DNA of 42,971 bases from an uncultured Erysipelotrichaceae bacterium (GTDB lineage Bacteria > Bacillota_I > Bacilli_A > RF39 > UBA660). The DNA lies in the NCBI GenBank assembly GCA_902797265.1, contig CADBSF010000045.1, positions 1 through 42,971 of the forward strand, given 5' to 3'. Position numbers and translations under genes: made by a program. Every line of letters starts with the position of its first letter. Within the stretch, counting starts at the first letter, position 1. Positions 35,353 through 38,270 of the stretch are shown here, in pieces. The notes below the pieces were generated by a model. That model worked only from the letters and a program-made list of their open reading frames with translations. It had not been told where the DNA came from and did no database searches.

Positions 35353-35366
35353 AAGTTAGAGTGGTT

Positions 35367-37550
35367 ATGAAAAAGAATAGTGTGATTAAAAAATTAAATT
35401 TGATAAGAGTAATATCTTGTTTAGCTGTATTATTTTATCATGTTGGTTTATTAAAAGGTGGATATCTTGCTGTATGTACCTTTTTTGTGTTGACAGGTTA
35501 TTTAGCAATCTTATCAAATCATAAGAAAGAAAATTTTTCCTTAAAAGACTATTATCTAAAAAGAATTAAAAAAATCTATTTACCTTTAATTATCGTTCTT
35601 TTTACAACAATAGGAGTATTAACAATTTTACCAAAAATCGAATATTTAAACTATAAACAAGAAGTATTATCCATATTAGGAGGATATAATAATTTTTGGC
35701 AATTAAATGCAAAATTAGATTATTTTGTAAGATATATTTCTTCTCCTTTTATGCATTTATGGTATATTGCCATTATCTTACAGTTCGAATTGTTTTTTCC
35801 AATTATTTATCTTCTTTTTCATAAAATGGAAAGAAAAGTACATAGAACTCTTCCTATCGTTGTAACATTTATGATTAGTGTTATTAGTTATATCGGTTTT
35901 TATAAATTAGTCGGAAGTAATCAATTAATGACTGCATATTATCATACTTTAACTAGATTATTTTCTTTATTTTTAGGGATGTTTATAGGATTGATTCATA
36001 CTTCTTATAAGCCATTTATTATCAAGAGTGAAATACTAGGAAACCTTCTATTCTATATTTATTTAGGAATACTTTTTGTTTTCTTTATTATAATTGACTT
36101 TCAATCTAGTTTCTTTCCTATTAGTATGTTACTTGTAACTATAATTTCTATGAGAATGATATCTTATAGTAGAATAGAAAAGAAAGAAACTTCTACTTTT
36201 GATATTCTAATCAATGAAATATCTAAGATTAGTTATGAAATCTATTTAGTACAATATCCTGTTATCTTCATTTTTCAAAATACTAAATCTATTCTTAAAA
36301 TACCTAGTATTATTGTAGTTACTTTTATTCTTTCTATTATTCTTCATAGAGTTTTTCATAAAACAAAGAAAAATAAAATCATTCAAATTCTATTATGTTT
36401 GATGCTTGTACTTACTACTATATATGGAGGAATCCAATTTATTATTAGTAAAGATAATACAAAAGAAATGAAACAATTAGAAAAAGACTTAGAAAATAAT
36501 CGATTAATTATTGAAAAAAGACAAGAAGAATTTATGAAAAGACAGCAGCAAGAACAAGATGATTGGGAATCTGTATTAAAAGATATAGAAAACAACGAAA
36601 AAGATTTGGAAAATACCGTTAGGAATTTAAATATTGTTGGTATTGGAGATTCCATTATGGAACTGGCAGTCAATGATTTGATTAAAGAATTTCCAAATGG
36701 ATATTTTGATGCAAAAACAAATAGAAGACCTAGTCAAGTAAATGCTTTATTAGAAGAGTTGAAAAGTAAAAATTTACTAAGTAATGTTATTTTATTTAAT
36801 GTAGGAACTAACGGAGAATTTTATCAAAAATATACGGATCAAATCATGGAAACTTTGGGTGATCGAATGGTATTTTGGGTAAATGCAACAAATGCAGATT
36901 ATGATGATTTTAATGATCGTTTATATGCTCTTAAAGAAAAATATTCCAATATTCATATTATTGATTGGGTGAGTGTTGCGAATGCTCATCCAGAGTATTT
37001 GATTTCTGATAAAGTTCATCCTACTGTTTATGGATGTAAAATCTATGCTCAAACGATATTTCAAGCTATTTTAAAAGATTATCAGGATGAATTAGAACGT
37101 CAAAAAGAAATCAAATTAAAAGAACATCAACAAGAAGAAGAAAAGAAGATAACTTTTATTGGAAATGATTTATTACTAGGACTTTATGAATATATGGAAG
37201 AAGATTACCCTAATGCGAAATTTATGATTGATTCTAATTTTTCTTATCAATCATTAAAGAATAAAATGAAAGAGGAAAAAATGAATCATAATCTTGTATT
37301 TGTATTTGATAAAAAGGCTGACTTAACGAGTGAAGATTATTTAAAATTATTAGAATCTTATCAAGACTATAATATTTTTATTATTGATTTAGATAATCGA
37401 ATTAAAATTAAGGAATCTAATATTAAAATTATTTCAATAAAAGAAGTCATTTTAAATGATAAAGATAATACAATTGATGGAATTCATTTAACAGAAAAGG
37501 GAAATCAACTTTTGAAAAAAATAATGAAAGAAGAAATTCCTGGAGAATAA
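35367..37550 (+). CDS. OatA-like acyltransferase-3 with two SGNH domains, second one degenerate
   Basis: 727 residues from ATG 35367 (GTG 35361 is possible; both have weak ribosome sites). Numbers below count from GTG 35361. Residues about 10-360 are an acyltransferase-3 domain of about 10 TM helices; the conserved His is 27 (LFYHVG). A helical Gln/Glu linker follows (about 366-422). SGNH domain 1 has GDS (429-431), NVGTN (480-484) and DKVH (550-553), a full catalytic set. A second linker leads to a shorter copy (about 597-725) with GND instead of GDS (601-603), no NxGxN motif, but DGIH (706-709) kept. This plan fits peptidoglycan or polysaccharide O-acetylation outside the membrane. Confidence 0.9.
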   Translation: MKKNSVIKKLNLIRVISCLAVLFYHVGLLKGGYLAVCTFFVLTGYLAILSNHKKENFSLKDYYLKRIKKIYLPLIIVLFTTIGVLTILPKIEYLNYKQEVLSILGGYNNFWQLNAKLDYFVRYISSPFMHLWYIAIILQFELFFPIIYLLFHKMERKVHRTLPIVVTFMISVISYIGFYKLVGSNQLMTAYYHTLTRLFSLFLGMFIGLIHTSYKPFIIKSEILGNLLFYIYLGILFVFFIIIDFQSSFFPISMLLVTIISMRMISYSRIEKKETSTFDILINEISKISYEIYLVQYPVIFIFQNTKSILKIPSIIVVTFILSIILHRVFHKTKKNKIIQILLCLMLVLTTIYGGIQFIISKDNTKEMKQLEKDLENNRLIIEKRQEEFMKRQQQEQDDWESVLKDIENNEKDLENTVRNLNIVGIGDSIMELAVNDLIKEFPNGYFDAKTNRRPSQVNALLEELKSKNLLSNVILFNVGTNGEFYQKYTDQIMETLGDRMVFWVNATNADYDDFNDRLYALKEKYSNIHIIDWVSVANAHPEYLISDKVHPTVYGCKIYAQTIFQAILKDYQDELERQKEIKLKEHQQEEEKKITFIGNDLLLGLYEYMEEDYPNAKFMIDSNFSYQSLKNKMKEEKMNHNLVFVFDKKADLTSEDYLKLLESYQDYNIFIIDLDNRIKIKESNIKIISIKEVILNDKDNTIDGIHLTEKGNQLLKKIMKEEIPGE

Positions 37551-37555
37551 TTATA

Positions 37556-37564
37556 TGATATAAT
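37556..37564 (+). promoter_or_regulatory. Extended -10 promoter
   Basis: TGATATAAT, 22 bases before ATG 37587. Confidence 0.65.
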
Positions 37565-37586
37565 AAATAAGTAAGGAGGGATAATA

Positions 37587-37736
37587 ATGGAAGAAAAGAA
37601 ATGTAATTGTGGACCAGACTGTACTTGTGGATGTCAGGAAGGAAAAGAATGTACTTGTCAAGATGAAAGTTGTATATGTGGTAATGAGTCAGAAAAGTGT
37701 GAAGACAATTGTACATGTGGATGTCATAATCAATAA
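37587..37736 (+). CDS. Cys-rich metallothionein-like mini-protein
   Basis: 49 residues with 13 cysteines and one C-terminal His, the rest mostly Glu, Asp, Gly, Lys. Cysteines come in CxC and CxCxC groups: KCNCGPDCTCGC, ECTC, SCICG, NCTCGC. This resembles bacterial metallothionein-type metal buffers rather than a membrane or DNA-binding protein; iron-sulfur binding or a modified peptide is possible. No signal peptide, so cytoplasmic. Strong AAGGAGGG ribosome site, an extended -10 promoter and a clean terminator support that it is a real gene. A longer frame on the same strand at 37609-37857 is a shadow. Confidence 0.85.
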   Translation: MEEKKCNCGPDCTCGCQEGKECTCQDESCICGNESEKCEDNCTCGCHNQ

Positions 37737-37853: not shown

Positions 37854-38270
37854 ATGAGTAAAAAAGTAGTTTTTCTATTAATTGCTATTGTATGTATTTT
37901 ATTAGCTGGATGCGCAATTTTCTCTTATGATATAGGAAAAATTCCTATTAATAAAACAGATTTTATGATTGGTCGCTGGAAATATGTCAGACAAATTACA
38001 AAAAAAGATAAAGAAGGATATATAAAAGATGCAATCATGGAAATAGATGAGAATGGAAATTGTACCTATTATGGAAAATATACAACTAATCCTGATGGTA
38101 CTGGAACAGAATTAGATTTTAATTATAGTGGGAAATGTTACTTTAATAGGATTCAAACGAAAATTAAAATGGAAAATGATAAAGCTATTATTTTAGATTG
38201 GGTAACTTATCAAAGAAGAAAAAATACAATTGTTATTGGAAATGTAGAATATTATAAAGAAAAAAAATAA
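37854..38270 (+). CDS. Lipoprotein of unknown function
   Basis: 138 residues. Lipobox LLAGC, Cys at 20. The mature part reads FMIGRWKYVRQ (about 44-54) and EIDENGNCTYYGKYT (about 68-82), which recalls lipocalin-like GRW starts of small surface proteins; two more Cys may form a disulfide. Ribosome binding site AGGAGGAGATTGAG. Another membrane protein follows after 13 bases. Confidence 0.8.
   Translation: MSKKVVFLLIAIVCILLAGCAIFSYDIGKIPINKTDFMIGRWKYVRQITKKDKEGYIKDAIMEIDENGNCTYYGKYTTNPDGTGTELDFNYSGKCYFNRIQTKIKMENDKAIILDWVTYQRRKNTIVIGNVEYYKEKK

Follow-up and report, generated by a model that had tools for sequence, protein, structure and literature searches.

The short open reading frame considered here raises the question of whether so small and cysteine-rich a frame is a gene at all and, if it is, what its product does for the cell. 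It lies in a 42,971-nucleotide stretch of DNA, the whole of which is here called the window, and translates as MEEKKCNCGPDCTCGCQEGKECTCQDESCICGNESEKCEDNCTCGCHNQ (Table 1). Thirteen of its 49 residues are cysteine, arranged in CxC and CxCxC clusters, a share high enough to meet the criterion of composition for the metallothionein class, and its one histidine is close to the end. When the window (25.7% GC) was shuffled 60 times with its dinucleotides preserved, no open stretch of 49 residues held more than eight cysteines, against 13 in the real frame, a density beyond chance. Together with the conservation described below, the frame, its translation and the shuffles confirm the 49-residue, 13-cysteine gene with CxC and CxCxC clusters that an earlier note on this DNA had claimed, and the gene is real. 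The same note had credited it with a perfect control frame. A ribosome-binding site, an extended -10 element and a hairpin that begins one base past the stop codon are all present, but a promoter scan of the window gene gave no convincing -35 element or consensus match upstream of TGATATAAT, and the terminator is weak. The terminator scanner scored the stem on the minus strand only, because the full 9-bp stem consumes most of the T run; with the plus-strand form GCAGA-ATTTA-TCTGC-TTTTTT, a terminator for the window gene remains plausible but weak as a prediction. The neighbours are as had been stated: a gene for a small lipoprotein follows downstream, and none of the neighbouring genes examined encodes a metal regulator. 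The lipoprotein gene is not conserved beside homologues of the module, and the acyltransferase-3 gene upstream lies outside the module's conserved context. The product of this upstream gene may possibly be a cell-wall O-acetyltransferase.

Table 1. Features of the window gene and its surroundings, and proteins at other loci (L numbers) to which the module is fused.
Feature	Window position or loci	Strand	Basis
Upstream neighbour: acyltransferase-3 with GDSL/SGNH-like C-terminal part	35361..37550	+	Pfam PF01757; weak PF00657
Extended -10 promoter element TGATATAAT	37553..37561 (ends approximate)	+	sequence reading
Strong ribosome-binding site AAGGAGGG, a few bases 5' of the ATG	37573..37580	+	sequence reading
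49-aa, 13-Cys metallothionein-like protein, free-standing form of the CxCxxxCxCGCQEGKxCxC module	37587..37736	+	ORF, homologues, alignment, low pN/pS, shuffles
Near-invariant core CNCGPDCTCGCQEGKECTC, residues 6-24	37602..37658	+	alignment of 21 members; codon comparison
Putative intrinsic terminator hairpin, stem AAAAGCAGA/TCTGCTTTT, then T residues	37738..37760	+	sequence reading; terminator scan
Downstream neighbour: small lipoprotein of no known family, past the hairpin	37854..38270	+	ORF list, family search
Fusion at HisRS C-terminus	L006, L007, L071, L020, L172, L176		
Fusion at GrpE N-terminus, between hrcA-like and dnaK gene	L042, L047, L050, L051, L060, L082		
Fusion at GrpE N-terminus, further loci	L155, L163, L165-L167, L169, L171, L173-L175		
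Fusion to FKBP	L053		
Fusion to ferredoxin	L132, L133		
Fusion to ArsR-type regulator	L170		
Fusion to RNase E/G, module between S1 and catalytic parts	L074		
Fusion to aquaporin	L059		
Fusion to SIMPL	L061; L067 by resemblance		
Fusion to YlbF-like protein	L040, L046		
Fusions to alphaproteobacterial membrane proteins	L037, L056, L057, L069		
Apparently secreted forms	L076-L078, L080		

The window's genus is represented by 39 genomes, six of which (G000, G009, G015, G018, G028 and G060) have free-standing homologues. The module is found in 34 of 386 genomes across the family, representing 21 of 150 genera, and in six of 395 genomes of the class sample. A pattern scan of 84,980 species returned 57 loci, all from uncultured-bacterium records and mostly from ruminant and other animal guts, with labels of Bacilli, Clostridia, Alphaproteobacteria/Rickettsiales, Akkermansia, Cryptobacteroides and Gastranaerophilales. 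Across 21 aligned homologues the core CxCxxxCxCGCQEGKxCxC is nearly invariant, the non-cysteine QEGKE spacer included, and positions C6, C8, C12, C14, G15, C16, G19, K20, C22, T23 and C24 do not vary. A homologue search for conserved cysteine spacing had been proposed as one check that could refute a metallothionein; the spacing is kept in these 21 homologues, and the metallothionein reading is not refuted. Mean pN over 33 core sequences is 0.095, against a pS of 0.76. Most of these 33 loci were found by peptide pattern, which biases the comparison towards protein conservation; five members of the genus that a profile search recovered as well (L032, L033, L039, L054 and L014) give, when compared with the window sequence, pN of 0-0.086 and pS of 0.39-0.76. 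By this codon comparison the homologues are under purifying selection, and low pN/pS is seen in the profile-found genus members as well. No NCBIfam model matches the window protein or the module, and searches of solved structures by sequence and by profile gave no match to the module. Viral-contig, plasmid and phage collections contained no homologue of the module, and carriage by mobile elements is therefore unsupported there.

The metal that such a protein might bind is suggested by gene order in its relatives. A csoR-type repressor gene adjoins the free-standing module gene in eight relatives from three lineages: in five Bacilli (L026, L029, L031, L033 and L039) it immediately precedes the module gene and abuts or overlaps it, and it is the next gene downstream in two Rickettsiales-labelled loci (L058 and L066) and one from Gastranaerophilales (L078). 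It is the one functionally telling gene to recur among the neighbours of free-standing copies, and is absent from the immediate surroundings of most of those inspected (about 26 of 34). Two of the linked repressors match PF02583 at 86-92 bits (cut-off 22.8). Among solved structures the L026 repressor comes closest to two copper CsoRs, 4adz and 4m1p, whose Cys and His-x3-Cys ligands line up with its own, and all eight linked repressors show the C-H-C residues that would hold Cu(I). In CsoR, one Cu(I) is held by two cysteines and one histidine (PMC7558416). With PF02583 matches for the two that were scored and Cys...His-x3-Cys ligands, the linked repressors meet the criteria for CsoR, as judged from their sequences. 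CsoR-operator-like sites usually accompany these genes. The motif ATACCCCC stands ahead of csoR in each of the five Bacilli operons, the CsoR-operator-like site of L026 and L031 being ATATACCCCC; GGGGTA lies in the module gene's own promoter in L045, L052, L058 and L066, and a similar site, CCCTAGGGGGGTG, is present in L078. TA-N5-7-GGGGTA occurs 14 times over 504 kb, ten times within 420 bp upstream of a module gene and four times elsewhere, where about 5% would be expected upstream by area (P about 1e-10). The sites had been inspected before the pattern was refined to this form, two loci are near-copies and some are close relatives, and one of the ten upstream sites (L081) is probably a chance match. 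On this evidence, which includes no binding data, putative operators with an ACCCC/GGGGT core near a promoter are present in relatives. The csoR genes beside eight copies and the operator-like sites point to Cu(I), and so sharpen the earlier suggestion of a metallothionein-like protein that may buffer Zn, Cu or Cd, which is supported and fits all findings. A further CsoR-operator-like site, TAGCCTAGGGGGTA, lies on the minus strand of L033 at 3689, ahead of a TfoX-like gene and near the csoR-module operon. In two genus genomes a CsoR-family gene unlinked to the module (L083 470-760 and L084 196-513) is located directly ahead of an mnmA-like gene.

We consider that the window gene encodes a cytosolic Cu(I)-buffering metallothionein that stands in for a copper pump and is CsoR-switched in several relatives, with a probability of roughly 0.7. 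The gene, its conservation, the csoR linkage, the operator-like sites and the lack of any CopA found alongside the module are observed. The metal and its binding are inferred, as are the steps that would follow. Most likely, the paired-cysteine core would enclose several Cu(I) ions in a thiolate cluster, an inferred structure, and the inferred protective role of this cluster would be to keep free cytosolic copper low, with the metallothionein taking the place of a copper pump in those gut Bacilli without CopA. Regulation is likewise inferred: in several relatives CsoR would probably bind Cu(I) and leave an ACCCCC/GGGGGT operator ahead of the csoR-metallothionein operon, so turning the module on. 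The window copy would probably be made from its own extended -10 promoter, either constitutively or under control that has not been identified. No GGGGTA operator is present at the window copy, and a role for its promoter as a CsoR target is ruled out by this lack; no PF02583 gene was found in the window genome, which is 77% complete.

The window copy, being without csoR and without operator, leaves room for a metallothionein of general or Zn(II)/Cd(II) type, with copper merely one inducer in some relatives. The mixture of cysteine and histidine in the HisRS tails of the genus would suit zinc, a cation-diffusion-facilitator-like gene adjoins the module in L029 and L048, and in L170 the module forms the end of an ArsR-type regulator. 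We regard this as unlikely, if still a serious competitor, since the sole regulator to recur by free-standing copies, in three lineages, is a CsoR whose C-H-C ligands are of copper type, and since the window protein offers only its single histidine. CsoR-family proteins can also sense signals other than copper, including nickel, formaldehyde and persulfide. Sulfide is abundant around gut bacteria and some repressors of the family, such as CstR, are persulfide sensors, and the module might then buffer thiols or persulfides under sulfide or redox stress rather than store metal. This seems improbable, as the linked repressors retain the Cu(I)-binding histidine between two cysteines that persulfide sensors of the family are not known to have, and no persulfide-handling gene was seen to recur among the neighbours. 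Scarcely credible is the idea, raised as the substrate of a modifying enzyme in the earlier note and prompted by a small, cysteine-rich and unannotated protein, of a precursor peptide for a ribosomally made natural product: no maturase or other modifying enzyme, protease or exporter recurs beside homologues, the conserved block starts at residue 6 with no leader-core layout, and the same block is found inside HisRS, GrpE, FKBP and other proteins.

The copper-buffering reading also bears on how copper is handled across the genus. No heavy-metal P1B-ATPase above cut-off, and hence no copper pump, was seen in the 77% complete window genome. Sequence reading narrowed a broader count of heavy-metal ATPases, in 21 of the 39 genus genomes, to copper-type CopA in 16 of the 39; ten CopA sequences read closely show the HMA domain and the CPC motif as well as the transmembrane signatures YN and MxxSS. 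CopA was found in none of the 12 genus genomes that carry the module, whether free-standing or on HisRS, compared with 16 of the 27 others (Fisher P 0.0004); for the six genomes with free-standing copies alone, P is 0.06. This exclusion is uncorrected for kinship and is only suggestive, because it rests on incomplete genomes and because the HisRS tree offers few independent contrasts; the Fisher tests themselves make no use of the tree. It is a reasonable reading that genus members with the module buffer copper rather than export it. Four further loci (L136, L137, L138 and L152) encode proteins of about 725 aa that resemble P1B-type ATPases; no motif of CPC, CPH or SPC type was found in them, and their N-terminal HMA-like part is without the usual CxxC.

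A precedent for such a protein is MymT, a small bacterial copper metallothionein that is, like the present protein, tiny, cysteine-rich and cytosolic, and that binds Cu(I) (PMC7558416). The present module is from a different lineage and is also fused to many housekeeping proteins. MymT is controlled by RicR, a CsoR paralogue, and its cysteine pattern appears to differ from that of the module. SmtA/BmtA resemble the present protein as small, cysteine-rich metal-thiolate proteins, but their family (PF02069) matches neither the window protein nor other members, and neither the zinc-finger part nor its histidine ligands can be recognised. Dipteran metallothionein family 5 (PF02067), the one related model in Pfam, shares a spacing of CxCGxxCxCG type, whereas the present family is bacterial and has the near-invariant QEGKE spacer. 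The PF02067 score of the window protein is 8.3 bits, far under the cut-off of 25; the match is weak in 12 of the 21 members, and exceeds the cut-off in one fused homologue (L081, 31 bits). Convergence on a repetitive cysteine pattern is the likelier source of this resemblance. Csp copper storage proteins likewise hold Cu(I) with many cysteines, but are four-helix bundles folded before they bind copper (PMC7558416), and the present protein is much shorter, with cysteines in every part of the chain.

A small bacterial metallothionein is an already known kind of protein, and bacterial metallothioneins are regarded as rare (PMC7558416). Within the literature searched we found no description of this family, of how it is paired with CsoR in Bacilli, or of its fusions. 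Our search gave no mention of the motif, of a C-terminal metallothionein extension of HisRS, or of rumen metagenome metallothioneins, and publications retrieved for metallothionein, GrpE and fusion were apparently unrelated by their titles and abstracts. Most subscription journals were outside the search, so description elsewhere is possible. The window gene belongs to a family not yet catalogued, made up of tiny, cysteine-rich proteins from animal-gut bacteria that probably bind copper, as inferred from sequence and gene order. The family is unannotated across many gut genomes and of a size small enough for gene callers to miss, and because some copies have a copper sensor next to them its function can be tested directly.

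The same block is fused to unrelated proteins, among them HisRS, GrpE, FKBP, ArsR, ferredoxin, RNase E/G and aquaporin (Table 1); partners were identified by Pfam for one example each, and otherwise by sequence or operon context. N-terminal fusions to GrpE occur in both Bacilli and Clostridia. A module on the GrpE of the window genome itself is ruled out, as this protein has no cysteine, and ten other GrpEs of the genus have no module and 0 or 1 cysteine each. Shared ancestry of the fused modules appears likely where QEGKEC is kept, and for more divergent tails convergence of repetitive cysteine-rich sequence cannot be excluded. Fusion might guard a metal-sensitive enzyme, add metal-binding capacity by way of abundant proteins, or give metal-dependent control; these roles are inferred and none is favoured by the data. 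We offer only tentatively, and would not yet rely on, the wider proposal of a portable metallothionein cassette that, across several phyla of animal-gut bacteria, has many times been attached to proteins that are essential or abundant as a built-in metal guard or metal-responsive switch, with the window gene as a stand-alone form that replaces copper export. If the HisRS and GrpE fusions do act in this way, metal stress would be tied directly to translation and protein folding, for which we know of no precedent. Within the genus, a tail rich in cysteine and histidine (4 to 29 cysteines) is carried by 33 of the 35 HisRS genes with a complete 3' end, and the catalytic bodies are mostly 85-95% identical to one reference. 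The remaining two (L100 and L105) have an acidic tail without cysteine, and the HisRS of the window genome (L109) ends in MEDDEDCCECGCHQEGEHECHCKKEEE. The genus HisRS tails (L087-L116 and L145-L150) are hypervariable, and in several genomes have expanded into metallothionein modules.
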